Source: Ceratodon purpureus
Taxonomy: Eukaryota > Streptophyta > Bryopsida > Pseudoditrichales > Ditrichaceae
NCBI GenBank assembly: GCA_014871385.1
Contig: CM026423.1
Coordinates: forward strand, 23,049,067 to 23,113,066
Reading direction: 5' to 3'
DNA: 64,000 bases
Of the stretch, positions 582 to 64,000 are shown one piece after another. A program made the position numbers and the translations under genes. The notes under the pieces were generated by a model. The model worked only from the letters and a program-made list of their open reading frames with translations. It ran no database searches and was not told the origin of the DNA. Within the stretch, counting starts at the first letter, position 1; each line of letters opens with the position of its first letter.

Positions 582-1622
582 TGGACAACTTACCCACTCT
601 CGGAGGCTGCCATGGCGTCGGCGGATGGCCTTTCACCGTCGGCGGATGACCTTCGAACAGCAGCCGACGCGCGCAGGTGAAGGAGCCGACGCCCTCAACC
701 CTAGCAGCCGACGCAGAAAAACCTAGCAGCCGACGCGACCTCTGCGGAGCGCTGAGAAGAGGACAAAAGAGAGCTGAAAAAGAGAAGGCTGGAAATGAGG
801 AGGAAATGTCGGGAGTGGCGGGTGTATACCCTGCAGACCCCCACCTCCCGAGACTGAATCGTCACGCCCGATGGGTCATGACGTATGGCTATGTACATAC
901 CATCCATGCATGGATGGTCATCCCTAACATCCGTCCCATCACGCCACGTAGGATGATGATGGGACGTCTAATGACTTTTTTTCAATCCGTCACCAAGTCA
1001 TGATGGCGTGGGCATGTGATGTGACAGCTGCTCCAATCGCCACGTTCAAATTCGTAATAATGAACTAACATTGTTCTGTGACGGCGGGGGCATCTCGCCG
1101 CCATGATGGGATCTTGATCTGTCCAAGGCGCGCAAAATTGAATTCGATTCTGGCGCCAATTTGTACTCCTGGGAATTCATAACTAACCCCCCGTCAGATG
1201 CGCATACTTCATTCTATTTCTGTCATTGCACTTTCGATTCCCTCTGAGAGTGCTCCTGACGCACACGTTTCCTGAGAGGACCGTTATTATTCCCGCATGT
1301 GCTTAACTGTCCCGCACCTTCTGTTGCCGTTTCTGTTGTCTTCGTCTATCGTTTCTGATTGGACGGTTGAGAAGAGTCTCTGATTGGACAGGTTAGGGAC
1401 ATCATACTGCTTCTCAACTAAGGTCCCCTGCAATTTCTGTCGGCGGACGTGTCCGTCATCGTCGGCGGATGCTATTTCTGTGCACACTCCGAGTCGTACG
1501 ATCCGCGTCGGCTGCCCGCCGAGTCGTCTTCGTTGTCGGCGGATACATTTTACTCCGTCGGCGGGGACACTTCCCGTCAACCTTGTCGGCTGTCCGCCGA
1601 CGAGGTCTTCATCTTTTATCCA
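582..1622. other. non-coding 5' flank of the DUF7869 element with palindrome half-sites
   Basis: No convincing gene. GTCGGCGGA or GCCGAC half-sites recur at about 617, 638, 663, 685, 706, 730, 1440 and 1461. Complete 17-bp copies are at 1507-1523 and 1585-1601. A separate perfect 18-bp palindrome, CCATCCATGCATGGATGG, is at 900-917. A reading frame is open from 1449, but its first ATG is at 1623, so 1449-1622 is taken as 5' leader. Confidence 0.5.
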
Positions 1623-9835: not shown

Positions 9836-10219
9836 TAGAAGGGCCTGGCACATGCGGCTTTCTGCTCACCCTGACTGCGCAGGGGTGCGCTGCGCAGCCA
9901 AGGGCGCAGTGCCATGTGTCAGGCACTGATTGGTGAATTAATATTTTGGGGTGCACCTTGGGGTATGGGCGCACATGGGGTGAGCAAGGGGTCTGCTCAC
10001 CCTTAGGCAAATTGACTCATTATTCTCAGGCCCTTCAGACTTAGTGCCCAAGCAGACCCCCCCTCCTGATTTTTAGTTCGTCTCTCCCATTTTGCCCAGG
10101 CCATTTGGAGAGCTGTTCTGTGTATTTAGTTGTTTTCAAGGGTGTGAGATGTTCTTAAGGTTGTGAGTAGTTCCCAAGGTTTTTTGGTGTTTTTTTTTTT
10201 GTTTCCAAATTTTCCCAAA

Positions 10220-11614: not shown

Positions 11615-12479
11615 TTATTTATGTAGCAATGCATATACTCATATAAATCTACATATTATTAGATCTTGTTTTTATGATTACACCTATTTTATTATGATTT
11701 TATTACATTTATGTGTCAAATTATGTTGATGGAGTGTGTTGCACATCTAAGCAATACGATTGTTCTTATTTTAAAAATTCTCAAAAAAACATAAATTAGT
11801 AATTTATCATGAAATAAATTGGAGCATTTAGCAAATCAAGTTGAGAATCCAACCACAAAATTTCACGTTATTTGGATGCAAGGTGTAAAAGTGGCAAAGG
11901 AAAATGTGATGGGGGGTTTAATGTGCCCAAATTTGCAAACTTACAGTTTGGGGGGCAGTTTTGAACAGCAGTTCCGGTACAGTGCTTCCCATTTGCTCAA
12001 TTTTGATTATTTTTTACTTTTGTAAAGTGGACCATCTGAAGGATGAGCATAGGCATGTATGGTAAAAATTTCGTATCATTTGAATGTAACATGAATTACT
12101 GACGTCCTTTAAAGCCAAGGGGGGTCTGAATTCTGAAATTTTCTTGTTTCAATAATCTGTAGTTTCTAGAAAAAAAACTCCCATTCTCTCAAACTTGTAT
12201 GTATTTGACTTTTACGAATTGGTGTAGTTTGAAGGCAAGATTAAGCACATGTACTAACAAATTTCAATGCATTTTAGTAAGGTGTGGAGAAATAAGAGAC
12301 CATGAAGCGGAACGGGGTCAAAATGAGTGATGTAGATTTAAATTGTGATTTTGTGTTTTGGTATTTGGGCCAAGCATACTAGTGTCTACAAACAGAAGGA
12401 GTCTTTAAAAGTCTTTATTATATATCGAGATGTATATGTATTACAATCCCTAAAGACTAAAACTCTACAAGCTATACAT
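11615..12479. other. AT-rich spacer between the convergent Harbinger genes
   Basis: Non-coding. Runs of AT and several ATTTT/AAAT words give likely polyadenylation regions for both converging genes. No gene seen. Confidence 0.5.
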
Positions 12480-13373
12480 CTAGCTTGTTGAAGGGCCAGA
12501 TCCATTGCCCTGTCGCATGGCACCAGCAAAAAGCTGAGCAATCTGCAGCTGACGCTCAGCATTGCGGTCGTCAAGCTCAATCATCTTCAAAGCTATCTCT
12601 TTGCTTGCCTCCATCTTCATGACTTCGATCTTTGAAGATGCCTCAGCAAACTTTCCAAGAGCAGCTGCAATGATGGTTGCCCCCTCAGTTGCAGCTTGAG
12701 TAGCAGTCTTCAGACGCTTGTTTGGTGCACCTCCCACCTCCTTGGAGGCGCACGATGTCGTTGGAGGTCGCGGATGCTCTCCAAATGCTGGAACTTGAGT
12801 AGCGGGTGAAGTAGGTTCAGCACCAGGAGCATTGTCATCATCCAGCTCTTGAGGATTGGCTCGTGTGCCAATATCCTCCCCCATGTCCATGCCTTGAGGT
12901 ACACCGTCAGCCTTAGCGGTTCCTGCAAGAATGTCATCCATTCGAACATACCAATGCCATGCAGAAGCTTGCGTACCTGTACCAAGTTCAGCTTTCTCTT
13001 TGTAGTACTGTGAACGCATCTTCTGCCACTTCGATTTCGTTTGCTCCCACGTACGAAGACTCTCACGTGGAAACTTCACTCGAATCCCCTCACACATTGC
13101 CACCCAATAGCCCTTCTTCATATTCCCCATCCCAATGGCCAAATACTTCTCCTTGTACAGATCTAGAAGGAGTTGTATTGCGCCAGAACTCCAAGCTTGG
13201 CCCTCCACAGGTTCATTGGCCCCCTTCCTCTTCTTTGTTGGTACGCGTTTTGGTGCCAAAACTTGTGATGGTGGTGGTGGAGTTGATGTGTGCACAACTA
13301 TCGATGTGGAAGAAGCTCCCCCTTCCCCATCTCTAAATAGCCCAAGTATCCCTGGAAGTCCATGCAAAGCCAT
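12480..13373 (-). CDS. Harbinger Myb/SANT-like DNA-binding protein
   Basis: A 297-residue frame starting MALHGLPG. A Pro/Lys linker (KRVPTKKRKG) precedes a Myb/SANT-like or trihelix-type domain at about 55-150: three spaced Trp/aromatic helices, seen as WSSGAIQLLLDLYKEKY, GYWVAMCEGIRVKFP and TWEQTKSKWQKMRSQY. The C-terminal 80 residues are a predicted coiled coil (KFAEASSKIEVMKMEASKE...DDRNAERQLQIAQLF). This is the usual second ORF of PIF/Harbinger elements and serves DNA binding and nuclear import of the transposase. It is intact and convergent with the transposase. Confidence 0.88.
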   Translation of the reverse strand: MALHGLPGILGLFRDGEGGASSTSIVVHTSTPPPPSQVLAPKRVPTKKRKGANEPVEGQAWSSGAIQLLLDLYKEKYLAIGMGNMKKGYWVAMCEGIRVKFPRESLRTWEQTKSKWQKMRSQYYKEKAELGTGTQASAWHWYVRMDDILAGTAKADGVPQGMDMGEDIGTRANPQELDDDNAPGAEPTSPATQVPAFGEHPRPPTTSCASKEVGGAPNKRLKTATQAATEGATIIAAALGKFAEASSKIEVMKMEASKEIALKMIELDDRNAERQLQIAQLFAGAMRQGNGSGPSTS

Positions 13374-37420: not shown

Positions 37421-38369
37421 TCAGGTACATGCGGCTACTTAGAGTAAGTATCTTATGTACTCCATGTGGCTGAAATGTACTTACGGTGCTGTACACAGAC
37501 GACATTATACTTGACGAAGCTACAACAGGTATTTCTTGTCTTTATTTAACTTGGCACTAGAAGTCCTACGTGGTAAACATAGATTGAGTCCTGGTCCTAC
37601 AGTACTTTCAGAATTGCGGACCTGTACAAATGGTCGAGCAGTTCAAATCCAATACATAGTGATAGTACTGGTTCATTTGTGGGGGTCGACTGAAATTACA
37701 TTATGTACTATTTGTATAGACTCTAATCTAGTGTGTCGTGGCAGGTTCTAGCCTCTGATTTGCATCACCAAAGAAGGCCTTCAAGAGCGCGGGACTAACA
37801 TTCGAAGGGGAGACAAGTCAGGCAGCATGCTCTGGAGGCGTGCCTCAGGAGTTTGGTGGAGTGCCGCACCGAATTCTGAGGGGCGACAGCATACGCTCAA
37901 GAGATGAACCAAGGTTGGAGAAGCCGGTGGAGAAGGTGGTCATGGAGGCTCTCGCGGAGTGCACTCACTTGAAGGGGTCTGAACCAGACCTGGAGTCGAG
38001 GGAGGATTCTTCAGATGACAAAGAGCCGACGGTCAAGATGTCCCCCCTACGTTCGAGCTCCGGCACTACCGTAGAGGGTTCGGGTTCGGATGGAAGCTTG
38101 TCTGATGATGAGTCGTCTGAAGAGGGGACAGAGGAGGGAGGAGACGACAACATCAGTGTGGAGGTGCGCCCTTCATAGCCAGCCCGAAGAAAAGGCAGCC
38201 TACAACAGCTAGCCAGGGAAGGGGATGTAGAAGAGCAGGTGGAAGAGCAGGATGATGTAGAAGTGATGAGTCCCCAGGAAGAAGGAGGGGGTCAGGGTGA
38301 TCGGGCTGTTGCTGTTGGTGTTGGTGTCAGTGGGAGCGGGAAGAAGGCGGATCAAGGTGCCGGCGTCGT

Positions 38370-38640
38370 GAAGAAGGGGCCGCAAGCAGTGAAGAAGGGA
38401 TTGCAGGCGCTGGAGAAGGGACCGCACACAGTGGAGAAGGGACCGCAGGGGGTGGAGAAGGGGCCGCAAGCAGTGGAGAAGGGGCCGTAGGGGGTGGAGA
38501 AGGGACCGCAGGCAGAGGAGAAGGGACCGCATGTAGAAGAGAAGGGACCGCGGGCAGTGGAGAAGGGATTGCAGGCACAGAAGGAACCGCATGTAAAAGA
38601 GAAGGGACCGCAGGGGGTGAAGGGGAAGGACACGCCGGAG
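38370..38640 (+). repeat. KGPQ coding repeat
   Basis: About twelve units of GAGAAGGGACCGCAG (EKGPQ), in 21-24-bp steps, with variable following residues (AV, GV, AE, HV). One unit reads CCG TAG GGG where its neighbours read CCG CAG GGG, a directly visible C to T change. Confidence 0.85.
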
Positions 38641-39324: not shown

Positions 39325-39650
39325 GAATACAGGCTTTAGCAATCTGTAGGATTGCTTGTAGTGTTTAATTTTTTTGTTTTTTGATCTATTGAGCTGCGGT
39401 AGAATGCTTGCATAGAATGGATTTGCAGGTATATTAATGTATCTTACCTCATCACCGAGGTCTTCCTAACAGGGAAGGTTCAAGGCTTGTATATTTTTTT
39501 CCCCATGCGGTTGTGCTATTTGCGGCCCATTTTTATTTTTCTTTGCATTTGTACTTTTTGTAGTTTTCCCCTGCAGTCCTAGAACCTATCTTTTCTATTT
39601 TTAAGAGAATGACGAGGGGAAGGTGGTCTGTTGGGATGTGATTCAACCAG
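39325..39650. other. spacer and likely intron end upstream of the SUVR exon
   Basis: AT-rich with no gene. It ends in ATTCAACCAG, taken as the splice acceptor for the exon starting at 39651. Upstream exons of the SUVR-like gene were not found; they may lie before the RING-like gene or have been lost. Confidence 0.4.
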
Positions 39651-39782
39651 GCTGAAGCTTGGTATGATGTAGCAGACCTGTCTAAGGGGCTCGAGAGGAT
39701 TCCTGTCCTTGTTGGTCAGTCTGAAATTGCTATGACATACTTTCAATATATGAATACGACTGTAGTCTTTGACCAAGCAGTC
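39651..39782 (+). CDS. SUVR-like histone methyltransferase, 5' part of an exon split by a transposon
   Basis: The exon begins after an ACCAG acceptor with GCT GAA GCT TGG and encodes AEAWYDVADLSKGLERIPVL...NTTVVFDQAV. Plant SUVR proteins have a comparable segment (a short acidic start, DLTKG-type motif, then IPLVN...) just before the pre-SET zinc cluster. The reading frame is cut after GTC at 39782. The next codon, GTG (of VATTLQSLRPGDFC), is at 54265, beyond the 14.5-kb element. The last eight bases, AAGCAGTC, are repeated at 54257-54264. Confidence 0.75.
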
Positions 39783-40567
39783 GGGGGAAAGTTCGTACGT
39801 GAGCGGAGAGCGTAGAGCGGAGAGCGGTGAGAGCAGAATGGAGAGCACAGAATTGACAATTAGGAAAATTTTCAAAAGCAAAGTAGACCCTATAACCGTG
39901 GAAAATTACTAAATTAAGGCTTAATTTTGACACTTTTTTTAGAAAAAGAGTATATTACCGTGGAAATTAGGGTTATCTCTGGTAAGAATTTATTACGTTT
40001 GTTCTCAAAGATACAAATTAGGGCTGATGTCATGATGACGTCATGCATACATTCCTTTAGATTTGTCATGGGTTTAGGCAAGATACAATGATCAGGCGTT
40101 GAGTTTTAGATCAAACAAATAATTCTTTCATAGGATTATGTAAATGCACAAGGAAATAAACAAATTTGAAAGAACGTAAAGGAGGCAAGGTTTGAAAACT
40201 TCCTGGAATATTTCAAAATTCGTGTATAATATCTTAACCGCTGAAACCAAGATATACCTTGTTAGAGTCCTTGTCTTCATCGAAGATTACTCTCTCTTCC
40301 TAGGCAGCAAAGCATCTTCATTTGAGTGATACAAGTAGGAGATTTTCATCATGAAACAACACTTGGTAAGCTGGATTCTTCATATTATATTTTGAGCATT
40401 ACAGTTGTGACATTTCATCCTTTACAAACACGGAGACAAATTGGATATGAGAATCATAACAAGTTTAGGTTTAGGATAGTAGAGTAGACGAAGGATTACC
40501 CAATGAACTCCAATTAAATCAAATCAAATCAAATGGAAACAACAATAGACCGAAGCCTCCTTCAAAC
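39783..40567. repeat. left terminal region of the large transposon
   Basis: The first about 85 bp resemble the inverse of the right end (GTGAGCGGAGAGC-rich). After that only short blocks match (ACCCTATAACCGTGG at 39888; AATTAGGG words). CCGTGGAAATTA occurs twice, at about 39897 and 39958. No gene. Confidence 0.7.
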
Positions 40568-43500
40568 TCACAACATGCTACAGTCGCTACTTTCACTCTC
40601 AGAACTAGATGACTCTGAATCTCCTTCTACCGCCTCGTCATCGACGAATAGAAGGGCCCTGGGATCAAAAGTAGTTGGCCGACTAGGAACATATGTGAGG
40701 GCTCCAGATTGAAACGCCTGTGCTAAGTCCTCTGCGTAGTCCGGAAGTATGAAAGGCTGAATCGGGCTGGAATGAAGACGCCACGATGGAGTGGACACTG
40801 ATGTTGGCCCACGTGGCGGTGTTGCTGAAACTACTCTGCAATAGAGAACGGACTGTGGTTACATCGAGTACGTAGAGCTCGAAAGACAAGTAACGCATGG
40901 ATAATTTGAACAAAGAATAGAAGACTTACACCACTTATCAGGTCTTGGTCTCTTTGGAGGCGCTTCGTCTGTTGCTGGCGGCCTTGGATGTTTAGGAGGG
41001 CCCATGGCGGATGGTCTAGCCATGCACGGTTTGAGAAGGGCGTTGAATATGGCTTCGTCCTCCTCAAAAGCGAGAATGTGACGACCAATAGCTTGGGAAG
41101 CCTTGATGGAGGCCCCTGAAACTCGGAGAGAAACAAAGAAATGAGAAAATGTGGTAAAAACGAGAAGAATAATTAAGCAGAGATATGCATGAATAGTTAC
41201 CTGTCCCAGCATTCCAATCAAGAACTATGTCACCGGGCTTTGACAGCTCCTCAATTATGCCCTGCATCATCTCAGGGGATTTCTCCCTTGGGCCTCTCCA
41301 CGGCACCTCCCCATTCATGAGCTGCGATTCCACATCGGTGAAGTTGAAAATGGCATCAATCTCGGTAATGTTGAGGAGCCCATGTATCAGCTCGGACTTC
41401 TTCGTCTGGAAGGAGAAAGTACTGCCACTACGAACGTAGACGCGAATCCAGAACCGCATAGTCTGCAGTCAAGCAAAACTAGTGAGTAAAATTAAGCGGA
41501 AGGGTTATCAGTAAGTAAAGAGAAGGGTATGTTTAGGGAAATTACCAAGTTCTCGGGGTTCGTAGGAGAAGTCAGGCCGAGGACATTGACGCCCCACCAG
41601 TCCTTGATAAGCACGTAGTCACCACCAGCAGCTTCTTCATCGATATCCTTAGCCAGCTTCTGATCAGTGTTGTAGATGAGGCAGATGGCACCATCTTTCT
41701 GCAGGAATTTATCTGCAAAACGGAAGATGTCGAACACATAATCCTTCTCGCGAGAGTTCCAAGGCGGAATACTCGTGGGGGGAACGGAAACGGATGGGAC
41801 GGGAGGATTCTCAGGGATGTCGGCAATGATCAAGTCGACTCCCAGATGGTCCTCTTGTTTGCACCGGTCCGGAACTCCGTTTTCGCGGCCTACTCCAAAC
41901 TTGAGGAAACAAGAAAGCAGAGTTAGTAACTACATAGCGAGTAGAGGTGGCAGAATCCATTAAATGTCCAAATATCGGAACATACCTTGCGAATGAAGTC
42001 TTGAGTCTTGATCCAATCCGGGTCGCCACCTTTTCTCTCCTGTCTCTTATTTCGCCGTAACATGGAATCCACAGATGAGTTGAAGACAGAAATATGTGTG
42101 GAAATTGAAGCTCCAGCGGAAGAAGTTGTTTGAGGATATAGTTTGGCCTTCCTCTGCTCGAGGAGCCCTCTGGTGACCTCGGAAGCACTGATCGAGGAAG
42201 GAGCCGGCGAAGAAGCTGGAGAAGGATTCGTAACGACAATACCCGGAGAGGGCTCTGGTGCCTTCTCAGCTGGCGCTGATGACTCCGCACCAGTTTGCTG
42301 TGATGCCTCTGACTGGGAACGCAGAGATTTCAGTCGCCTTCCTCTCCCTCTCTTCGGTGGTGGAGCAGAAGACTGATCCTGCTCTCCTTCACGACCTTCT
42401 GCATCATCCACGGAGTCCTCCGCCACGACCTCACCCCCATCGTGTAGAGTCTTGACGTCCGCCTCTGAGTCAATCGTGAAACCACGAGAGCAATCAAGAT
42501 ACCAGCATCCCTCAAGCAAGTGAGGAGCTTTGTACCTTTTCAACTGTTGGGGAGAATAGATACACTGGTCCGAGGTTTTCGACGTCCAAGCAAGGAAGTA
42601 GTTGGGGAGCTGCTGGACCGTGATGGCCCCCTTCAAAACAAGCTCTCGCTTGAAGTACCTAAGTAAACCAATATGTAGAAGGTTAGTATAAAAAAGATAA
42701 AGAGACCTCATTCTGGAATTTGAATCTGATTAAAAGGTATGTATCGTACCGATAAGTAACCGGCTTGACAACCTGAGCGGTTCCAGGAAATTTAGCAAAA
42801 ATGGACTTCTTGTCGAATGGCTTATCAGCATTCTTTCCAATGAACGTAGAGAAGGCCTTGTCCCACAACATAATACGTGCACTCTCCACATAATCGCCCG
42901 GCTCTTGGACATCAGGAAATGCCTTCCAATTAATATCGAGGTTCTCCGCCTTGCATATGTCCTGAAATTCGTTGATGACGGCTTCCTCCAACTGTAATTC
43001 AGAATTGAATTAATTAGCAGTGAGAGGGAATCGAGGAAGAGAAGAAAGAATCAAGACATTGAAAAGGTTTTCAAAAAACTATACCCCTGCCCAGAATGAA
43101 GCCTTGTTCAACCAAGGGTCGAAATCGGTATCCTTGAATTCAGGTGGTAGAAATCTGTACGACATTCGGGAACTCAGAGATGAGTTCCACCACCTCAACC
43201 AACGAGTCTTGTATTTGGCCTCCACGGCCGCTGGAACAATCTTCTGAAGCTTATCGAGGGACATCTCTGGTTTATTGTTCTCACTGAAATGCCGATTAAT
43301 CTGAAACAAGTACAGGAGTTTAAGAAAATATGAATACAAATCAATGTAGTCAAAGGAAATACTTAAGTGAACTAGGGTGAGGGTCTCACTTCGTTGAGGA
43401 AGTCGTCACCGTTCTTGGGATTTGCAATTGCCAAATACTTGGTGAAGTCCTTCCTCTTAATGAGTTCCACCATGTTGGTTGAAGCTGCATTCATGGCATC

Positions 43501-45300
43501 CCAAACACCAGTCGCGGTTTGGTCTTCAGTGGCTGTTTTCGTCTTGTAGACTCGGGCAGCTTCGTCAGAAGCAGCCGTGATTTCTCTCTGGAAAACAGAT
43601 TTATGAAATTGTAAGTTTAGAAACAAACACATATCATTTGTCGATATGGAAGTGTGAGGGGGGGGAGAAAGAAGTGCTTACACGATAAAGAAATGCGATG
43701 AAGACTTTGGTTGGCAAGGTAAACCAGGATGGATTAGCCGGTTTGTGGTTCAAACATAAATGATACTCCGCTGGTGTGAGGAGATCCTTGAATTCCTCCA
43801 ATTTCATCACACCAAAAGAGCGAATTCGGAAAAGTTTTGCCGGAATATTACTCTTTACATGATCATTTTCTGTAGACCTGTACGAATAGACAATGGTTAG
43901 TAGAATGCATGAAGAACGACGTCAAGCTGTGTGCAAGAGGAATGGACAAAATAGAGGGTTCAAATTCTCACCAGTTTATGTCGTGCATGGCATGTAGAAG
44001 GTTTCCCACATGACCGCGGGGGTCAAGAACAATGCAATGCACAGAAATGTGCCATGCTGGATCTTCGCTGTGATGTTTGTTGATATGTCTGTACCATGCG
44101 GCAAGGCGATGGTTACCTTCCCAGACATAGAACATCTTCCCAGAAAACTCCTTCAAATCCGAGTCGGCCAAGAGCTCATCTTCGAAAGCATCATTCGCTT
44201 TTTGCCAGCAAGGGCTCCACTCAGCCTTGGTCTCCTGCGTGACATCGGCTGTCTTCTCTTCATGGTCGTAGATGGAAATGTACATGACTCGGTCTCCATC
44301 TCTATATCCTTTGACAAACTCGCGCTCCAAATGCTGAACTCCCATTTTTCCTACAGGTCTCACTCTTGCCATAGAGATCATTCTGCAAAGGGGAACTAGG
44401 ATATGCGACTTCGACTTTGGAAGTATTCGGAGCTTGTTGATGACACCATTGGAGTCTTGCTTGTGTTGTACCCGATGTCCCAATTCACTGTCCACTACAT
44501 TCGTCAAATCAGGAGGACAAGATGGCGCTGGCAACATATCCTGTGTCTGAGTTACCTGCCAGAAGTCATACATTTTCAAATTTGATTCGAAGACAAGGAT
44601 GAGAATAAGTAAAACAATTATGAAGAAGAATAAACCAGTAGCTTATAGAACTGATACATCTCTTCTGGAAAACCAACTCTAAACACAAACAAAAGAAAGT
44701 AGTACATAGGCCACTATGTACGTGGAGCACGGCTATAATACTCCCTAGCCTGTCTACAGTTCCAATGACGGCGCCTCCTCCAAAAACGCCTGGTCTGCTG
44801 GACAGGGCAAGGCAGTATTGCCGGTAGAGCGAAGACAACATGGGCTGGCCTCCTCACTCTAATAGGCGAGGAAGGAGAAGGTGGAGACATTGGCGGCGTA
44901 CCAAGTCGTGGAGAAGTGGGCATATAGCCTGGGGATGTAGGCTCATAGACAGGAGATGTAGGCATGTACTGAGGAGAGTGGACCTCGACAGGTGCACTAC
45001 CTAAACCTACAGGGTTTCCTAAATCACACCTACATAAATGGGGCTGATCAAATGAATCCGAGAGGTCGGAAACATTGATCACTGTGATCGGAGAACTGAT
45101 GGACAAGGGTGCATCTGAGAATACCTACATACAGAGGAAAAAATACATTGTCAATTAACCAATTTAGGTTACAAAACTACTTAAAGAAGTTTAATCTACA
45201 TTGCAATATTCAATAAAAAAAGAAAATAAGATTAAATTACCTCAGTTTCTGCAGGAGTTGGACCATCAGCTTCAGTTGTAGTGAGTTGATCTGTGAACTC
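40568..45300 (-). CDS. transposon-borne ParB-like / N6-N4-type DNA methyltransferase-like protein, 12 exons
   Basis: Minus-strand exons with GT-AG borders and matching phases: 45300-45241, 45124-44858, 44555-43972, 43877-43682, 43587-43390, 43300-43085, 42991-42750, 42658-41986, 41899-41546, 41462-41201, 41115-40930, 40833-40568, about 1,170 residues. In order: an acidic segment; three Pol II CTD-like heptads (YMPTSPV, YEPTSPG, YMPTSPR); a module with YVWEGNHRLAAWYRH (44106-44120 region) that looks ParB/Srx-like; a helical middle; a Ser/Pro/Lys linker; then a beta-class methyltransferase fold with DLIIADIPEN (motif IV position), WWGVNVLGLT, PREKSPEMMQGIIEELSKPG, motif I VLDWNAGTGAS and AIGRHILAFEEDE. 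Motif IV is not the usual DPPY, so activity is uncertain. No internal stop seen. Earlier exons probably include those at 46732-47860. Confidence 0.7.
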
Positions 45301-45410
45301 CTACAACACAGACAACAAACTGATTATAAGATTCCAACAAACAGTTGCAATCCAACCAAATAATATCGTCATGAGATGTTAAACTATTCTGCCCCCCACC
45401 CCCAATCCCC

Positions 45411-46264
45411 ACATTCTGTACAGAATGTTAAACTATTCTTCCTCCCAAATTTCAACATTCTGTACAAAATGTACTCCCTTCCTCTTCGCGGCCATGGCAG
45501 TCGCGCCCCCCAACTCCTTGCACCCGCGGCCTCCCCCCATCTCCCCTTCCTCCGGAACTTGGACATTCTGTACAGAATGTACTCCCTGCATAGCCGCGGC
45601 CATGGCAATCGCGCCCCCCAACTCCTTGCACCCGCGGCCTCCCCCCCTCTCCCCTTCCTCCGAAACTTGGACATTCTGTACAGAATGTACAGAATGCATA
45701 GCCGCGGCCATGGCAGTCGCGCCCCCCAACTCCTTGGACCCGCGGCTTCCCCCCATCTCCCCTTCATCCCAATCAACCACATTCTGTACAGAATGTGGCA
45801 TCTTCCACCCCCAAGCCTTCGCGGTCGCGTCCCCCACCTTCGCGGTTGCCTCCTCCACCGTAAGCCTCCCTTGGATTTCCTTATGCGCTTCCTGCAAAGC
45901 CGCGGCCATGGCTGCCGCAATGGCAGGATCTTCCACCAGAGGGCTCGCGCCTTCGAGGTTCACCTCAATCAATCTCGCGATGTGCGCATCATTCTGCACC
46001 AGCAGGACCGCGAAGCCCCTCTCCTCCTTCGCTTCTTCGACCTAGCAAAGTGCTTCGAACTTGCCCCACCCCGACCCAACTCTCTCCATCTCCTTAGACC
46101 CACGGCCTCCACCCACCTCCCCTTCCTCCCAATCAACCACATTCTGTACAGAATGTGGTCTCCCCCGCCCCCGAGCCTTCGCGGTCGCGCCCCCCACCTC
46201 CACCCACCCGCCGCCTCCGCCCACCTCCCCTTCCTCCCAAACTTCGACATTCTGTACAGAATGT
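45411..46264. repeat. array of the 18-bp palindrome ACATTCTGTACAGAATGT at 108-bp spacing
   Basis: Copies at 45411, 45455 (one mismatch), 45563, 45671, 45779, 46139 and 46247. Steps are 44, 108, 108, 108, 360 and 108 bp. The unit between them is GC-rich (GCGGCCATGGCAGTCGCG and CTCCCCTTCCTCC-like words). 108 bp is 36 codons, so both strands stay open: minus reads HSVQNV...EEGE...KELGGATAMAA and plus reads DILYRM. On the minus strand this could be an exon of the methyltransferase gene, but I cannot fix its splice sites, and stops occur at 46042 (possibly an intron acceptor) and 45433. Confidence 0.85.
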
Positions 46265-46731
46265 CGAATTCTCCTCCCCGCGGCCATGGCGGTCGCGCGC
46301 CCCACCTCCATACACCCGCTGTCGAATCTCGCGGCGCTTGCTGCTAGAAGATTCGCAACCTCCACTTCATATATTGCGGTCGCAGCTCCTAATAGGATCG
46401 TAGCCTCCACCTCACAGTTCGTTGCAGAGTCCTTGGTAACCCCATCGACCTATCCTCTGGCGACTGTTGCGACAAGATTCGCAATTCAAATGATCCGTAT
46501 ATCCGCAATGGCTGCCCAGTTCGATGCAACCTCCAGCTTAAACATCGCGGCCACGGCTGCAGTGTGATGCGAATCCGCGACCTCGGCTCTTGCAGACTGA
46601 GCTGCAGAGAGATCTGCAAGTCGAATCTCTCACTCCGGGACCCTGCGTAACCCATTCCACGAATCCCCCACCTCACCCACTTCAACATTCAACAACCCCA
46701 CATCCCCAAAATCCCAAATTCGAACCCTTAC

Positions 46732-47860
46732 CTCCTCAGTGGCTGCGCCTCGATCCGTCTCTCCTCCCGCGCTCTCCATCTCCTCTGCCCCTCGGTCCTC
46801 TCCACGCGCGGCCATTCTCCCGTCAGCACAATCCACCCCCGATGCCGCAAGCTTCAGTTGCGAAGTGCCCTCACGTGACTCCTTCCTCCGACTACCTCGA
46901 CCTCTCCCTCTCCCTGGACCATCTATTCCTCTCCCTCGATCCGCAATCTCTATCTCTTGACATTCATTGTCATCAACGGGCCCCGCCATTCTACCGGGTG
47001 ATTGGTCCTCGTCTAGACTCATCAACGATGGACTTCCGGGGTCCCCTCGTCCCGCTCGTCTCGCAGCTATTGCTTCCCCACCTTCGCCCGCCTCCATAAT
47101 TTCTCGCCTTGCTCTACGAGCCACTCTTATCAATGTCTGAGGATCGGACTCCTCGCCCGCATCCACTTCTGGCGTCTTTTCCTCTAACACCTCTTGATCA
47201 ATCCTAAACCAATCGATAATCTGCACAAATATTTAAGACTATGACGAGTATTTATACTTCGGATATCTTATTGTAAACAACCATTCGGTTTGATGCGGCA
47301 TCATAACTCTAATTAGTAAAACAATAGAAATGCTAACACATTACATAAAAATGAAGGTAACTCTCAAAAATACATTATTTACAGTTAGCATGTTATAATG
47401 TATCGATTATGAAACTTACTGCATCTGTGTTAGAATGGTCGGCCGACTGTGAATTCGTCCCTCTTGTTGAACACTCCTTGATTCCAAACGAAGGTTGTGG
47501 TGTCTCCAAAGTCGGACTGGAATTGAACCCTAGGTCTTCCGTCATCTCTATGTGTTTTTCTCCGCTACTTCTTTCCTCATGCACCTGATGCTCAACTACG
47601 ATGTCCTCTAAAACCTCATCTTTCACCTCGACTATGGACTCTAAAATGAGTTTACGAATGCTACAAAATTTAATTGCCACAGGCAGCCCAGCTCCTCGAA
47701 CCTTCAGAGGTGCACTCAATAGGTTGCCTTTCGACTTTGACTTCCTACGTAATTCTCTCCTCTTCCTCGCTCTCCTATTTGTAAAATCTGTACCGTATGC
47801 CTTTCTTCTAGGTTTAGGAGTGACATAAGTGGAGGGAGCTGACCCTCCACTCTCCTTCAT
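46732..47860 (-). CDS. N-terminal exons of a transposon accessory gene (possibly of the methyltransferase)
   Basis: Exon 47860-47420 starts at an ATG (MKESGGSAPSTYVTPKPRRK) and ends at GTAAGT. Exon 47220-46732 starts after a TGCAG acceptor and ends at GTAAGG. Both are in phase 0 and give about 310 residues. The first is strongly basic (NRRARKRRELRRKSKSKG, a likely nuclear signal), then acidic. The second is rich in Arg/Gly/Glu (RGRGIDGPGRGRGRGSRRK). No known domain. Same strand as the methyltransferase exons with only the palindrome array between, so one long gene is plausible. The divergent transposase starts 1.04 kb away. Confidence 0.5.
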
Positions 47861-48904
47861 GTGTCTAACTAACGAGAGAACTCTCCTCACAATTCAGCTC
47901 TCCTTCTAACTGCCCTTCTTCTTATATATCCCAAACCTTCAACCCCTCGGTCTCAGTCCTGAATACTTTCCCTATGCCTAGACTATAAATAAATGCATTT
48001 CGAATTGAAGTTCATATGATAAATCTAAATTGGAAGAAAAAAAACATGTCCGCGAAATAATAATAGATTTCATTGTGCAATGGTATACTTGTATTAAATA
48101 TAGAAGGAACTCATGGCTCACTCTAATCTCACCTACCCACATATCAAATAGCCTCGGGTCCACGATTCAAACATTATATGCTTAGTTCTAAAAACTCCTA
48201 CCTCCTATACTTGGGCCTCCAAAAAGCAGCATTTAAATTAGTTAGCGCCGTCTCTCTTAAATCAAACATCAAATATGGACATTCCAACCTGAATATAATG
48301 ATCAACAGCGATGCATCATTCCTCTCACGTTGCCCTCACGATATCGCTTTGCTACTTCACTCACTCTTCTTGCTACTTACCTGAGTTACCTGCGAATATG
48401 GGGATGGTTTGTCTGTCCAACAATCTATTATGAAAATTGAGGAACCCTAACACAGAATAAAATATAGAATTTGAATAAATCATATGCTTGCATTAGTCTT
48501 ATATATATATAACTAATGCATGAATATGATTAATTCAAATTCTATATATTCATTGTTTTAAATGTAGGAGGAAAAGACGGCTCATTTTAATCTAATCACA
48601 CTCCATAAAAAATACAATCTGCTCCACGATTTAAACACTTAAAGCAATATTCTAAAAATCTTACCACATATTTATGGGCCTGCAGAAAGCAACATTCTAA
48701 TCAGTTAGCGCCGTCTCTCTTTAATCATACATTCGTTACGTAGCAGAATGAATCATTACCTAGTCGTCCACATGGACATTCCAATATGAATAAAATGATC
48801 AACAGCGATGCATCATTCCTCTCACTTTGCTCTCGCGATACTGCTTTGCTAGTACACTCCCTCTTCTCCGTTCTTCCTCTAGTATCTCTGAGTTGCCTGC
48901 GAAT
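47861..48904. promoter_or_regulatory. divergent promoter region with a tandemly duplicated transposase 5' end
   Basis: A segment of about 300 bp is present twice (about 48170-48410 and 48620-48915). Both hold AGTTAGCGCCGTCTCTCT, ACATTCCAA, GATCAACAGCGATGCATCAT and TGCGAATATGGGG, and so both include the transposase start codon (48398 and 48905). After the first ATG (MGMVCLSN) the frame is soon lost, while the second leads into the full gene. TATATATATA is at about 48501. Confidence 0.75.
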
Positions 48905-51900
48905 ATGGGGTTGGTCTGTCTCTACGCCCAAGGCATGGGCATCCCTCTTAGGTTTCGCGTAGATGACGATGGTCTAGCTACAGTTTCCTCTCTTCGGCTG
49001 AGTCTCAGATTCCATTTCCGTGAGGATTCTATCAGTATAGAGGAGGAGATCTTTGATGACGTTACTGCCGAGGTTACCCACACCCTCGGGCAACCTTCAG
49101 TGAGAGATGAGAACAATATGTTGCAGTGGAGACTTCTCCCTGGATCCTATAGGGTCTATGGTCTTACTGATTCTCTGATAGCTGCATCCACTGAGATCCT
49201 CACCCTCCGTCGCTCTTCTACTTGCACAATTCAGACTCTCTTACCTCGTGATGTCAAGGTCAAAGTCGAGCCTGGTACTGAAACTTCAGATGTAGAGAAA
49301 CCTCCCCCTCTGACAGTCATTTCTCTCTCCTCTGATGACGAAGTCAGTCCCGTCAAGTTGGTGCCCAAGGTCCACGCTGATGCTCCTTCTTCCAATGTCT
49401 CTCCTCCATTGTCCCAGGTCACAGTTAGCATTGTTACGCTCCTTAAAGAGATTGCTAAGACGCGTGGGTCCAAAAACATTTTGAAGAAGATAGACTATTC
49501 CACTATTAGACACGAGAGAGTAGAGTACTTGCCTGCGAAGTTTGATGGTCCGGTTCTTTTTGAGTTGCCCCCAGCTGCTGCAGGTTCCTCTAAGCTCGCC
49601 GCCAAGTCAATGCAGGGAATGGACAAACGATACGACGGACACTTGTGGACCAAGACCATCACAACAAACATCAAAAACGACTTCGGTCTGTCCTTTAGAA
49701 GTTCCACCTGCGTCGGATGGTTGCGTTGCACGAACGTGGAGTGTGACTTCCTCAAGCGTGTTCCCAAAATCTTCGAGGTTAACGAGACTGAGTTTGAAGG
49801 CTGTACCCTACAAGCTTTTGTCATGGATCAGCCTCCTCCATCTCACTCCACGCTAGTGTGTAAGGTATGTAAAGAACCTCCATCATGTGTAGCTACATGC
49901 GAGGCTAAGATTTATTACGTTGTGGGCAAACCGAATCAGACTAGAGCTTGTATTCACATAGGAACACATGATCATCCAGTGAAAGTTGGAGACTACAGAG
50001 ACTCTAAAGCAGAGATTAGTAGCTTAATAGAAGAGCAAGTAGAGATGAACAACAAAGCAACAAAGAGCGCCGTTGTCCTGGAGGCGAGCAAACTCCTCAT
50101 CGGGAGCTACCTTCTACAGCCCGAGGATGCACCACCGAGGAAGCTGACAATGGAGGAGCTGGTTCCTGTTCTGGATCGATGCAAGGACATGGCGTCACCA
50201 AACATCCGCAACAAAGTCGCCACCTTCAAAAAATTCAAAAGGTACGGAATCATGGACGGTATCACCAAGCTCCGTGGAAACAGTCTCTGGGCGTATGTCC
50301 AAGAGAATAGGTTTCCTGGTCAGGGATCTATGCATGACAAAGTCTTTGTCTTCAAGATGTCGGAGGTCGGGCCGGGAAGTGGTGTCGACTTGGTCAGCCG
50401 TATGCAAGCTGGTGGCGACTTGGAGAACGCATGGATCATGTTCGACCATGTAAAACGCGTCAAATACTGGTCGACGATGGCGTGCCATGTGTACAATGCC
50501 ACCTACTGCCGCGTGATGACAATCGCCACTTGCGACATGCAGTCCGAGGACACGGACGCCCAGCTCGTCTTCTGGAAAAACCTGAACCTGGTCATGGAGA
50601 TCAATGGCGTTGCAGCGCCGAACTTCAAGGGGTTCATGGCGGATAACGCACAGGCCAATTGGAATGCAGTGCGAATCCTTTACGGCAATGGCAACAAAGA
50701 GGACCCAATGGAGGACCGGGAGAGGTCGTGCTTGTTCCACTGGACTCAGAACATGGTGGCGTATACGCAGAAGCACTTCCCCGAAGAACTCTGGGAACAG
50801 CACAAGAAGATGTGCACTCAGTACAAGAATGCGACCAGCATGGCAGAGGCGGAAACTCTGTACCACGCGTTGCGAGCATGGTGGCATCCACCGGGGTCGT
50901 TGGCGAGAGCGGGCTCATCAAACTCGATCAGTGGCTGTCATTCTGGCACCACCGCTTCCGCCAGTGGGGGGGATTCATGACCGAGGTATTATCTCTGCGC
51001 TCTGTTTTCATGTTTTTGACTCTGGTTTCCTAGCCCTAATCTACAAAACTGTAATCGGTGAATCTAACGGCACCTACTGTCAAACCTGCAGAAATTCACG
51101 AAAGAAGAACTCACAGAGATGCCCACCTGTAACCTCGCCGAAACAGTTCACAACAAGTGGCTCCAAGCTTCTGGAAACAACGGGAACGACCTGTACGTTG
51201 CTACCGTGGACGATTTCGTTCGGGCATTTCTACAAGTTGTCAACTACTATTAGTTCCTCAAAGGTGACGTCGGCGGTACAGGACCGTCCAAGAAGGAACT
51301 CAGGCTCCGGATGGCTGAACGCAACGCTAAGAAATGGGGAAATCCTACACTGCTCGACAAGCCCATGCTCGATATGCCAGGCGCGGATGAGTTCTGCACC
51401 CGTCAGCCTATCATGCCTGGAGCGGAAGTCTTCGGTTCACAGAAGCGAAAAGCCGACATCCTTATCGGAGCTGACGAGGAGTCTCAACGCCCGGATAAGA
51501 CAAACTTCTCACGCCCAAGAGGCCCAAGACGTGCCGTCAGGGCTCGCCCTTTGCAAATGCCCGTAATTGTGGAAGACGACTCCGAACACGACACCGAGGT
51601 ACAATGTACCCAACCTCCTGCCCAGGAAGTTGATTCCCCTTTACCTTCACCTGTGAACAAGGGCGGTATTCGCCATGTCAACGCGGTTGAAGAAACTAAG
51701 GTGGACGTGAAGGAGTGGCACATTTCGAGACTTCACAAACTTTCTGCGAAGTGCTGCTGGGCCCAAAGAGCTGAAACGAAGAAGAAGTGCACTGAGAGAA
51801 TTGTCAGGGGGCCCCATTGCACAGCTGCCCCGACCTACACTGGGCTGTGGACTAAGTACAGCAGGAACACAGTCGAGAAGACAGAGTTCTTCTTCTGCTC

Positions 51901-52585
51901 TGATGATATTGAGCGCTGCGTGAAAGGCTCTAAGCGCAAGTGGGTAGCACACTACTCAAAGGACCAGGAATTCCCCTCCATCCCAGAGGTGTGGCCTGTG
52001 AAACTTGGTACTAACCTAAAACTCACTGAGATTCTTGCCCTCGAAGCAGCGGGCTTTCAACTTCCGCCGAAGAAACCGGTCTCCCCAAGACGCCTGTTCA
52101 CTTCTGCCCCGCCCCCTGCAAATCTCAGCTCGCTGCCAGTCCCTGCAGACGCTGACCGCTACCCAGGCAAGAGAGACGGCAAGATGGTGAAGCGCACTGC
52201 CACTCGTCCCAATCAAGCGCAGCGACTCTCCATGGGCTCCTCCGAATCTCTTAAAGCGCGCCTCCGTTCCGTCACCATGATACCTGAGCCGGGCCACGGT
52301 TGCATCATTGGGCTGGATTCGGGCGTCGCTCCACACATCACACGGTACCAGATTACCATCAGTTCTTACCCTGGTTGCACTTGCCCAGCATTCAAGAAGA
52401 CGATGACTACCTTCCGTGGCAAGACTCTGTTCACGTATTGTAAGCACCTATACTACATACTCTTGAAGGTCTGCAACCGTGATCCCGAAGCGGAGCTTTT
52501 CATCCATGCGCCTACCTGCAGCTTCAACGAGGTCAAGCTACTCTTAGAGAGTGGAATCTTGCGTCACCCCTTGGCGAAGAAGTAG
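48905..52585 (+). CDS. MULE-type transposase with WRKY/GCM1-like zinc finger and SWIM domain
   Basis: Exon 48905-50985 and exon 51092-52585 are joined across a GTATTA...TGCAG intron of 106 bp (TEKFTKEEL). N-terminal about 110 residues: unknown, beta-rich. Middle: a WRKY/GCM1-like Cys/His finger (CVGWLRCTNVECDFLKR ... HIGTHDHPV). DDE core: IMFDHVKRVKYWS with Asp 514 and FMADNAQANWN with Asp 580. C-terminal: NLAETVHNKWL, then a SWIM finger (GCTCPAF ... YCKHLYY). These proteins cut and move Mutator-like elements. Two breaks are visible: a frame change between about 50860 and 50900, before LDQWLSFWHHRFRQWGGF, and an in-frame TAG at 51251. The present copy is therefore probably inactive, though the element still has intact-looking ends. 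Confidence 0.85.
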
Positions 52586-52836
52586 GTAGCCCTCCTACTT
52601 TAGAACTGCCATTTCCACAATGGCCATTTGTCACGTAGTGAATGATTTTAGTAATATCCCATGTACTAAGTCCGCAATACGGAAGCTATATTGACTTTTT
52701 CATTATAAAGGCTTTGTTGTTCTCATTGATTGAACTCTATTTGAAAACATTCTATCTTGAACAAGTGCACTATATACTTCGTATCCCCTGACATGTATCT
52801 TTTATTACAGCAAACATATACTTGTTATTAGATGTC

Positions 52837-53289
52837 TCAATCTTCGAACCTAACACGTTTAGGGTTGCCCACTACACTATCAGCAGGACTGCCAGCCGCT
52901 GACTGTACTACAGGACAAACTACATTCGCATTCACTTTCGTTCCCACACTTGGAGCGTGTCCTTGGTATGAACGTTTCAGCAATGGCCCACCTCCCCGCC
53001 TCCGATTAACTGATTCCCTGGAATAGGTTCCCCTTGGGATCTTTCCAACCTTCGAGTATGCATGTGGTTGCAAAGGCACATCTGCGTCCTTCTCTAGCAC
53101 TCTGATTTCATCCGAATTTTCTGAACGTGGAGGGTCAGCTCTTACATCCGGTTGTACGTCAACATCCGTTGTCGAAGGACGCCCTTGGCTGTTGGCCATC
53201 ACCTCTTCTTCGTCCTCCACCTCAACATATGGTTGAAACGGACAAACATCGTCAGCAAGTGAAACAACAATATCTCTGACGTCTTCCAT
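52837..53289 (-). CDS. small accessory ORF of the large transposon, unrecognised
   Basis: 150 residues from ATG at 53289 (MEDVRDIVVSLADDVCPFQP), acidic in the first third and basic in the last (REGT..RRRGGGP...GNPKRVRFED). No known domain. It is convergent with the transposase (252 bp between ends). The start of the same ORF occurs in the second copy at 63978 with an identical first 23 bases, so the ORF is a regular part of the element. Confidence 0.6.
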   Translation of the reverse strand: MEDVRDIVVSLADDVCPFQPYVEVEDEEEVMANSQGRPSTTDVDVQPDVRADPPRSENSDEIRVLEKDADVPLQPHAYSKVGKIPRGTYSRESVNRRRGGGPLLKRSYQGHAPSVGTKVNANVVCPVVQSAAGSPADSVVGNPKRVRFED

Positions 53290-54256
53290 AGCTGCTGTCC
53301 CGCACTACGGAAAAGAGCTTCACATAACACCAACACAAAAGAGGCAGAGACATTCCCTACTCTTATCTTAAATATCCCTGAAGAAGATGCTTGGCACCCT
53401 TGAAAATCGGCTATTCATTCATTTAAAAGTTGTCATCCTTCTAAACCGAATTGAAAAAGATGAAGGTTTAGCAGAGGTCATTTAGCATTTAATTTAAAAA
53501 AAAAAAAATAAAGAATGCAAAAAAATTTAAAAAAAAAAAAAAACAAATTATATAAATTGAAATTAAAAAGATTAAAGTAAAGAATAGCAATATTTAAAAT
53601 GAAGGTTGAAAATAATATGAAGGAGATTAACAAATTGAATGTGAAAATAAAATGATTGTGAAAATAAAATGAAGGAGAGAATTAAATGAAAGGAGGCTTT
53701 TGACCCCTCTAACAAGATAGATAGAATAAAGAAAATTTTATAAAAAATACAAGACAAATATAAAAAAAAATAACAAAAAGGACAAAGGCATGTAGACTAT
53801 GATGGACGAATTCTAGCAATGTTAAGAAAATGTTACGAAATTAAATGTTACTTGATCCCTGTTCAGAGGTTCAATACCAGTACATTTTAAGTAGTAATTT
53901 GCATATAAATTTAAGGAGATAAGGGGAATTACTGTATGCCTGAACTAGTTAGAAGGAGCTGGAGCATAGTCCTAGGTGCACGTTAAATAATTAATCACCA
54001 AGAAAAGAGAATATGAACTACAAATTCAATGAAAATACTGTAATTAGTCCACGGTTATAGGGTCAATTAGATTACTAAAATTAGTAAATTTCTAAAAATA
54101 TACTAAGAATATTCGAATTTTCTAATTTTATAATTTATTTTTAGTAAAAAAAGTGCTATTTTAAGGTTCTGTCCCCCATTCTGTGCTCTCCGCTCTCCAA
54201 ATCTGCGCTCACCGCTCTCCGCTCTGCGCTCTGCGCTCACGTACAAGCTTCCCTCC
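53290..54256. repeat. right terminal region of the large transposon, shared with the second copy
   Basis: Nearly the whole stretch is found inverted at 62981-63977, with few substitutions and small A/T-run indels. The outer 90 bp are GCTCTCCGCTCTGCGCTC-type repeats, copy number differing between the two (six GCAGAGC units in the second copy). The inner part is AT-rich with no gene. Confidence 0.9.
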
Positions 54257-54264
54257 AAGCAGTC

Positions 54265-55196
54265 GTGGCTACCACCCTTCAAAGCCTCCGCCCCGGGGAC
54301 TTCTGTATATGTTCCTCGGAATGCTTGCGGGCGAATGGTACTTGTGCATGCCAATCTAGTCCACGGGGAGGCGTTGCATATAGTGAAGGAGGCCAAGTAG
54401 AGGACGCGTATCTAGAGCCCCGCAACGAAGAAGATGCACATTACTGTAAGAAGGATGCACGTTGTTTTAATGGAGATTCAGTGTGCCGGGGTCATGTAGG
54501 TGTTCTTTTCGTTAAGGAGTGCAATGTCAAGTGTAGGTGTCATCGTGATTGTGGCAATCGTGTTGTCCAGCAGGGGATGAAGTATCAAGTAGAGGTTTTT
54601 CCTACAGCCCATACGGGGTGGGGGATTCGGACGACTGAGCTAATTCCTAGAGGTGCGTTTGTTTTTGAGTTGACGGGAGAGATTTTAACAAATGCTGAGC
54701 AAATGGTTAGGAACTTGGAGGTAGTTGGGGGTCAGTCCTATAGCTTGCAACTTGATGCTGACTGGGCCACTGAGCGGAAACTGGACGACCACAGTGCACT
54801 ATGCTTGGACTCTTCTCGGTTTGGAAATGTGGCCAACTTTTTGAACCACATGTTCGAACTTGCGACCATATTCTATAACATTTGCGGTCTTTCTTCTCAC
54901 AATTTCAGTCTGGCTTGACGGTGGGCCTTTGTCAATACAGGTGTGACGATTCTAACCTAGTGGATAGATCTGTCTCGATAGAGAGTGTGGATCGCCGCTT
55001 CTATCATGTAGCATTTTTTGCAAATCGTATCATACGGCCTGGAGAGGAACTAACTTGGGACTATCGCACTAATTTTAACAATAATGATCCGGACCTACCT
55101 CGGTTTTCTTGTAAGTGTAAGAGTAAAATGTGTAGAGACAATGCCTTACCACTTGCCATCCGAAGGTCAACCAGGAAAGCACCTAGGAGAAGATGA
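54265..55196 (+). CDS. SUVR-like histone H3 lysine methyltransferase, 3' part (pre-SET, SET, post-SET)
   Basis: Exon 54265-54851 and exon 54941-55196. The 89-bp intron (GTTCGA...TACAG) joins NFLNHM to CDDSNLV in frame. Pre-SET Cys cluster: FCICSSECLRANGTCAC, YCKKDARC, CRCHRDCGNR. SET: GWGIRTTELIPRGAFVFELTGE, FGNVANFLNH, then FFANRIIRPGEELTWDY. Post-SET: FSCKCKSKMCRDN, ending RRR and TGA. This set defines SUV39/SUVR enzymes, which methylate H3K9 in chromatin. The conserved NHxC has Met where Arg or Ser is more usual. The frame has no start of its own, because its upstream exon is cut by the 14.5-kb transposon. Without the transposon and one AAGCAGTC it reads FDQAVVATTL. Confidence 0.88.
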
Positions 55197-62980: not shown

Positions 62981-64000
62981 GGAGGGTAGCTTGTACGTGA
63001 GCGCAGAGCGCAGAGCGCAGAGCGCAGAGCGCAGAGCGCAGAGCGGTGAACGCAGATTTGGAGAGCGGAGAGCACAGAATGGGGGACAGAACCTAAAAAT
63101 AGCATTTTTTTACTAAAAATAAATTATAAAATTAGAAAATTCGAATATTCTTAAAATATTTTAAGAAATTTACTAATTTTAGTAATTTAATTGACCCTAT
63201 AACCGTGGACTAATTACAGTATTTTCATTGAATTTGTAGTTCATATTATCTTTTCTTGGTGATTAATTTTTTAACGTGCACCTAGTACTATGCTCCAGCT
63301 CCTTCTAACTAGTTCAGGCATACAGTAATTCCCCTTATCTCCTTAAATTTATATGCAAATTACTACTTAAAATGTATTGGTATTGAACCTCTGAACAGGG
63401 ATCAAGTAACATTTAATTTCGTAACATTTTCTTAACATTGCTAGAATTCATCCAACATAGTCTACATGCCTTTCTCCTTTTTTAAATTTTTTTTTTTTTT
63501 TTGATATTTGTCTTGTATTTTTTATAAAATTTTCTTTATTCTATCTATCTTGTTAGAGGGGTCAAAAGCCTCCTTTCATTTAATTCTCTCCTTCATTTTA
63601 TTTTCACAATCATTTTATTTTCACATTCTTTTTGTTAATCTCCTTCATATTATTTTCATCCTTCATTTTAAATATTGCTATTCTTTACTTTAATATTTTT
63701 AATTTCAATTTATATAATTTGTTTTTTTTTTGTTTTTTTAATTTTTTTTCATTCTTTATTTTTAAAACAAAAATTTAAATACAAAATGACCTCTGCTAAA
63801 CCTTCATCTTTTTCAATTTGGTATAGGAGGATGACAACTTTTAAATGAATGAATAGCCGATTTTCAAGGGTGCCAAGCATCTTCTTCAAGGATATTTAAG
63901 ATAAGAGTAGGGAATGTCTCTGCCTCTTTTGTGTTGGTGTTATGTGAAGCTCTTTTCCGTAGTGCGGGACAGCAGCTATGGAAGACGTCAGAGATATTGT
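62981..64000. mobile_element. second copy of the large transposon, left end only (runs off the window)
   Basis: Starts GGAGGGTAGCTTGTACG and repeats, in opposite orientation, the whole right end of the first copy (53290-54256) and the first codons of its accessory ORF. The outer repeat has six GCAGAGC-type units. The preceding eight bases, TCCAGTAG (62973-62980), should be its target duplication. High similarity to the first copy suggests recent activity of the family. Confidence 0.88.
63978..64000 (+). CDS. start of the accessory ORF in the second transposon copy (partial)
   Basis: ATG GAA GAC GTC AGA GAT ATT G (MEDVRDIV), identical to the start of the 150-residue ORF at 53289. Cut by the window end. 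Confidence 0.75.

Follow-up and report, generated by a model that had tools for sequence, protein, structure and literature searches.

The closest described counterpart of the element reported here is Sola1-1_Ec32 of the brown alga Ectocarpus, a giant DNA transposon in which a 1104-aa protein with ParB-like and N4/N6 methyltransferase parts is encoded opposite to the transposase (Dinatale et al. 2025, PMC12477816; papers given by PMC number are cited from their available parts). The authors of that account suggest that such elements mark themselves and point to green and red algal cases, for which Iyer 2011 and Petroll 2025 are cited as describing similar transposon proteins; they also state that in giant elements of this kind the transposase gene is often a predicted pseudogene. 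The element considered here lies in a 64-kb window (the whole stretch analyzed: 64,000 nucleotides of Ceratodon purpureus, contig CM026423.1, positions 23,049,067 to 23,113,066). It is a genuine transposon with precise ends, spanning positions 39783-54256 of the window (14.5 kb), and is probably Mutator-like. Between its ends, and on the strand opposite to the transposase, it carries a long spliced gene, the cargo gene, whose C-terminal part is related by sequence to the N6/N4 DNA methyltransferases.

The first-pass annotation of this DNA had taken the arrangement to be undescribed, a view contradicted by the Ectocarpus element. In both giant DNA transposons the strand opposite to the transposase encodes one long protein that includes an N6/N4 methyltransferase domain, and the broken transposase found here fits the frequent predicted pseudogenes there. 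They differ in that the Ectocarpus element is a Sola1 transposon of 21.5 kb in a brown alga, whereas the present one is probably Mutator-like, measures 14.5 kb and has green-lineage neighbors. A ParB domain is reported there but is unconfirmed here, and the two are likened by description, not by sequence. What may be new is the superfamily of the carrier, probably Mutator-like rather than Sola1; a literature search, which did not extend to Iyer 2011 or Petroll 2025, found no Mutator-like carrier of such a gene. Also new is an array of seven palindromes in intron 2 of the cargo gene, without counterpart in the available part of the Ectocarpus description. If unrelated superfamilies, Sola1 in a brown alga and a probably Mutator-like element here, share such a bacterial-type methyltransferase gene, then the gene would serve the transposons, most likely in the control of host silencing, and the palindrome array would be a concrete, testable target for its product.

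Other known systems resemble the locus in part. VANDAL21 of Arabidopsis is a Mutator-like element (MULE) with an accessory gene, VANC, beside its transposase; VANC21 occupies introns, intergenic regions and terminal non-coding parts of the element, and the motifs it binds occur as tandem repeats (PMC5735166). The repeat layout of the present element recalls these arrays, but in the portion of that paper available VANC is not called a methyltransferase relative and no palindrome is mentioned, and binding is demonstrated there but conjectured here. In the putative methylase of Wolbachia phage WO, an N-terminal ParB-type domain precedes a beta-class methyltransferase, the architecture first claimed for the cargo gene. 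That protein has 404 aa and an intact DPPY, and its ParB domain falls below the Pfam cut-off (22.9 vs 26.3 bits), whereas exon 6 of the cargo gene is undetectable as ParB. Bdelloid N4CMT is likewise a permuted N6_N4 methyltransferase in a eukaryote, but it is a host gene with SPPY and a chromodomain, and it helps to silence transposons rather than riding on one (PMC8885841).

Ends, insertion site and cargo gene

The terminal inverted repeats are 55 nt each and identical at 48 of 55 positions (87%), and they are flanked by exact copies of an 8-bp duplication (39775-39782 and 54257-54264), as the first-pass annotation had recognized. When the element is removed together with one 8-bp copy, the flanks fuse into one open pre-SET/SET-type frame (DLSKGLERIPVLVG...TTVVFDQAV / VATTLQSLRPGDFCICSSEC...). 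Its right part matches Pfam SET at 7.1e-9 and Pre-SET at 0.0028, the latter below its cut-off. The element thus landed inside an exon of a histone-methyltransferase-like gene, which we take to be SUVR/SUVH-like. No inner inverted ends with duplications, indicative of nested insertions, were noticed between the element ends, no full search for nested elements having been made. The right end also occurs a second time in the window, inverted, and aligns with the first in four blocks of 92, 397, 250 and 229 nt that are 96-97% alike.

The cargo gene diverges from the transposase and runs on the minus strand from 47860 to 40568, with 15 exons and 1530 codons; it had been correctly described as spliced and divergent, though with 12 exons. 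All 14 introns show GT-AG boundaries with matching phases, and once joined the 15 exons form a single frame free of internal stops. The final ten (1058 codons, hereafter the core) were defined first and are the best supported, and there is less certainty about exons 1-5, the start codon and the last acceptor. With codon log-odds that were trained on the transposase gene, the gene frame ranks at the top of the six in 15/15 exons, in a scoring that penalized stops in the other frames and so favors the gene frame. The score is just 1.2 in exon 2 and falls to -4.7 in exon 4 and -13.1 in exon 15, both still first of six. The long intron that bears the minisatellite was also considered as coding sequence and was rejected on finding stops in all three frames.

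The METHYLTRANSFERASE part of the protein matches PF01555 at core residues 877-934 (E=1.7e-7; the 1058-residue core scores 31.8 bits and the isolated domain 35 bits, the cut-off being 26.7), a match that covers just the last third of the profile. Methyltransferases of PHROGs match down to 1.8e-9 and type II methyltransferases of PADLOC down to 2.1e-9; the best NCBIfam match is weak (3.2e-4) and under the cut-offs of that library. Against Protein Data Bank (PDB) sequences the domain gives six matches (E 0.015 to 0.16), all to methyltransferases. Among 50,697 phage records searched by tblastn, 343 gave a match at E<=1, the lowest E being 1e-7, and in no case was >80% of the query covered; one uncultured-phage protein aligned over 186 residues with 26% identity. 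Comparison by hhalign with a profile of 32 viral ParB-methylases gave a probability of 90.8 over 57 columns. With the matches in Pfam, PHROGs and PADLOC clear, and the hhalign score reached by 0/60 shuffles, a chance match can be rejected. The profile search of the joined exons suggested in the first-pass annotation thus yields PF01555 above its cut-off and no ParB. Scans of viral contigs, each seeded with six exact 8-residue patterns and so reaching close relatives only, found none for the methyltransferase domain, for exon 6 or for the transposase.

In the alignment motif IV precedes motif I, which is the permuted, beta-class order; the motif IV half alone has no significant score (domain 1 at -3.1 bits). 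Judged by this homology, the C-terminal part of the cargo protein is a relative of the permuted beta-class N6/N4 methyltransferases. The class had been named correctly, and so had the positions of motif I and the closing motif. Upstream, exons 8-9 (43085-43587, minus strand; core residues 297-357) match DUF6037 below threshold and perhaps by chance (E=0.02; 15.3 bits, cut-off 28.8), and a 560-residue segment that starts in exon 6 and ends in exon 11 has no match in phage records.

The palindrome array and the proposed role of the cargo protein

Seven copies of an 18-bp palindrome, six perfect and one with a single change, occur where 0.03 would be expected. Four of the six spacings are 108 bp and the others 360 and 44 bp, the copies lying in 108-bp tandem repeats. 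In six aligned 108-bp units, among which the first palindrome copy, at 44 bp from the second, is not entered as a separate unit, 17 of the 18 palindrome columns are invariant vs 32 of 90 elsewhere (Fisher p=2.8e-6, the columns not being independent), and the palindrome is the best-conserved 18-column window of the repeat. In three copies the symmetry reaches further, to 22, 24 and 26 bp; their added arms are not alike from copy to copy, but within each copy they remain complementary. The exact half-site CATTCTGT occurs 19 times in the window, 14 times within the array and five times outside it; about 3 are expected in all by chance. Of the five outside, one borders the right inverted repeat on its inner side and another occupies the equivalent position in the second copy. 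No palindrome pairs were found in viral and prokaryote genome contigs.

The array may be nothing other than a GC-rich minisatellite, or may act as RNA hairpins in the intron, in neither case with a protein that binds it, and we put the likelihood of this only slightly short of one half. It does sit in tandem repeats, and its transcribed strand folds far better than 20 shuffles (z -7.9), as palindromes must. It is harder to explain in this way why the palindrome is far better conserved than the remainder of the same repeat unit, and why arms that vary among copies remain complementary in three of them.

The reading that we favor, and that we regard as evenly poised between right and wrong, is that of a large, probably Mutator-like transposon with an accessory DNA-binding, anti-silencing protein of methyltransferase-like type. 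Transcribed away from the transposase, the cargo gene would encode a long N-terminal region joined to the beta-class N6/N4 methyltransferase-like domain, and the protein would be a sequence-specific DNA-binding factor that the element itself supplies. It would recognize repeated sites within the element, the seven intron-2 palindromes being the best candidate, and would protect the element from host silencing in much the way that VANC proteins protect the VANDAL MULEs of Arabidopsis. The methyltransferase-like domain may bind S-adenosylmethionine (SAM) and DNA; given the DIPE catalytic tetrad described below, efficient marking of DNA is less likely than a role in binding or an impaired function.

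Several observations weigh against this proposal. The palindromes are tied to the cargo protein by position alone, and their conservation may reflect recent duplication or RNA hairpins. The window holds one complete copy of the element, and thus no further copy that would show the gene traveling with it. Searches of the transposase against Pfam, PHROGs and NCBIfam gave nothing above chance (best E 0.12, 0.36 and 0.15). DNA binding by the N-terminal region is conjectural, and the sequence tests gave no support to the ParB assignment of exon 6, which is unproven and leans on the published Ectocarpus sister case.

These tests concern a ParB/sulfiredoxin (Srx) module claimed in the first-pass annotation. 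The sole sign of it is an EGNHR motif in exon 6 that aligns with DGHLRLKAA of ParB. Exon 6 has no match in Pfam, PHROGs, NCBIfam or PADLOC, and when a 36-sequence ParB profile was run by hmmsearch over every frame of the window, neither exon 6 nor the core was among the matches listed. Compared with that profile by hhalign, exon 6 scores 16.1, with 5/60 shuffles as good, and it is residues 23-39 that align and not the motif; residues 61-195 alone do worse (47/60 shuffles as good). The score against the full ParB-methylase profile is 20.1 (2/60 shuffles), but it lends ParB no support because the motif is placed on methyltransferase columns. A second profile, built from 18 viral ParB domains with 32-72% identity to the first of these domains, finds ParB, Noc and a plant sulfiredoxin (6.6e-6) in the PDB and gives exon 6 a probability of 0.3. 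For the 40-residue segment around EGNHR, 255/1000 shuffles score at least as high; for the full exon this profile reports 675/1000 shuffles but not the exon itself. Exon 6 has a single match in plasmids (E=2) and four among PDB sequences (E 0.15 to 0.83), none of them ParB; its single-sequence structure model (pLDDT 35.8) is unusable for fold comparison. Because a profile that reaches a plant sulfiredoxin misses exon 6, the ParB label is unproven.

Catalysis, transposase and the carrier

Motif IV of the cargo protein reads VDLIIADIPENPP, to be compared with VDLVLIDPPY, AQLVIADIPYN, ADITVCDPPYN and IDLIVTDPPY in four aligned relatives. The catalytic tetrad is therefore DIPE, in which Glu replaces the usual aromatic side chain, against DPPY in three relatives (L001, WO and SfV) and DIPY in one (L002), and it departs from the (D/N/S)PP(Y/F/W) type. 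Motif I reads DWNAGTG rather than DPFxGxG. Because the tetrad lacks its aromatic residue, catalysis by the cargo protein is doubtful. These features bear on the idea that the protein is an active enzyme and methylates the DNA of its own element at N6-adenine or N4-cytosine, a role also proposed in the first-pass annotation and published for the Ectocarpus element (PMC12477816). The clear PF01555 homology, the SAM-binding motif I (GxG) with the acidic residue of the next motif, and bdelloid N4CMT, a case of such an enzyme being functional in a eukaryote (PMC8885841), all speak for active self-marking. With the altered tetrad and motif I, and with 4mC abolished in N4CMT by the change of SPPY to APPA, albeit with two residues changed at once (PMC8885841), it seems unlikely.

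The transposase of this copy is interrupted. Codon usage changes frame near 50840-50880, and an in-frame TAG lies at 51251-51253; because of these two lesions a complete transposase is probably not made by this copy, sequencing errors aside, and the gene is probably broken. The interruption, the DIPE motif and the palindrome array all go beyond the first-pass annotation. Since the transposase has no family match, the Mutator-like label is based on features. Of the MULE/SWIM transposase originally named, the SWIM-type CxC-CxH finger was recovered by eye and the MULE family match was not. The order MFD, MADNAQANW, CLFHW fits what we take to be the MULE core. Mutator-like elements are defined in part by duplications of 8-11 bp, and in the published table two groups have 8 bp and many have SWIM fingers (PMC6446971). 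The present element combines 55-nt inverted ends, an 8-bp duplication and a restored empty site. By duplication length, inverted ends and SWIM finger, it is probably Mutator-like. We consider it improbable that it belongs instead to another superfamily with 8-bp duplications, for example Zisupton/KDZ-like or hAT-like. Zisupton and hAT elements do have duplications of this length, and no MULE family appears among the matches listed with E up to 10; the structure model of the transposase core (pLDDT 39.5) is unusable for fold comparison. For Ectocarpus, giant DNA transposons of the KDZ, EnSpm and Sola-1 types are named (PMC12477816). The published MULE definition, 8-bp groups and SWIM fingers nevertheless agree with the element, as presumably does the order of the core motifs.

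A further possibility is that a host or foreign methyltransferase gene was picked up and is decaying as a passenger with no role for the element. Mutator-like elements do take up host gene fragments (PMC6446971; PMC6431247), and the altered catalytic motif and the broken transposase would suit such a history. That all 15 exons of a long gene are open while the transposase carries two lesions, and that orientation and domain type are the same as in the Ectocarpus element, makes it a rather poor explanation. Least probable, and at present a long shot, is that the palindrome cluster inside the cargo gene is a centromere-like site on which the ParB-like/methyltransferase-like product of that gene loads, to spread along the element and mark or shield it. 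If true, this would mean that bacterial partition-and-modification logic had been recast as an anti-silencing system in a eukaryote, resembling VANC by convergence.

Features of the element and of the window

Coordinates of the element and its surroundings (positions in the window)
Feature	Position	Strand	Basis or remark
Interrupted pre-SET/SET histone methyltransferase-like gene	39600-39782 and 54265-54918		Pfam; empty-site joining
Left target-site duplication copy AAGCAGTC	39775-39782	.	direct reading; identical to 54257-54264
Left terminal inverted repeat	39783-39837	+	48/55 match to right end
Cargo exon 15	40568-40833	-	acidic/serine tail and stop; acceptor least certain of last ten exons
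Cargo exon 14	40930-41115	-	methyltransferase domain end (AIGRHILAFEEDE)
Cargo exon 13	41201-41462	-	motif I region (GDIVLDWNAGTG spanning splice); PF01555 match
Cargo exon 12	41546-41899	-	motif IV region, reads VDLIIADIPENPP
Cargo exon 11	41986-42658	-	low-complexity linker, basic stretch
Cargo exons 7-10	43877-43682, 43587-43390, 43300-43085, 42991-42750	-	middle region
Cargo exon 6	43972-44555	-	putative ParB/Srx-like region with KMFYVWEGNHRLAAW; motif alone, unconfirmed
Cargo exons 4-5	45124-44742, 44678-44636	-	splice model; exon 4 codon score negative
Cargo exon 3	45241-45300	-	splice model, codon score
Seven 18-bp palindromes ACATTCTGTACAGAATGT	45411-46264	.	starts 45411, 45455, 45563, 45671, 45779, 46139, 46247; within intron 2 (46731-45301)
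Cargo exons 1-2	47860-47420, 47220-46732	-	basic, low-complexity N-terminus; start codon a choice
Intergenic region with diverged duplication upstream of transposase start	48191-48867	.	repeat families D6, D7
Transposase exon 1	48905-50985	+	ATG at 48905; DDE-like core by eye (MFD, MADNAQANW, CLFHW)
Transposase exon 2	51092-52585	+	SWIM-type CxC-CxH ~52376-52447, by eye
Third reading frame of element	52837-53289	-	150 aa; no Pfam family match
Right terminal inverted repeat	54202-54256	-	48/55 match to left end
Right target-site duplication copy AAGCAGTC	54257-54264	.	direct reading
Second copy of right end, inverted	62981-64000	-	runs off window edge at 64000

Exon 4 of the cargo gene encodes three heptads, YMPTSPV YEPTSPG YMPTSPR (~44906-44968, minus strand), of the pattern Y-x-P-T-S-P-x and with silent differences between the units; three such heptads arose in 0/200000 shuffles of the exon 4 peptide. 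They resemble what we take to be the C-terminal domain repeat of RNA polymerase II. Upstream of the transposase, the duplicated stretches 48191-48370 and 48654-48867 lie ~463-497 nt apart and are 81-89% alike. The first codons of the 150-aa frame recur in the second right-end copy, and a 21-bp tandem array is found at 38326-38598, ~1.2 kb upstream of the insertion site.

Elsewhere in the window a tRNA scan of the 64 kb found none, and a DUF1118 gene (1.8e-46) presumably encodes a member of a plant chloroplast protein family, which points to a host of the green lineage. Two long reading frames at 1449-5164, the second with DUF7869 (3.7e-44), are probably another transposon. At 10163-13373 a DDE_Tnp_4 transposase (4.9e-27) is accompanied on the other strand by a Myb/SANT-like partner (4.8e-8), a pair that we assume to be of the PIF/Harbinger type.

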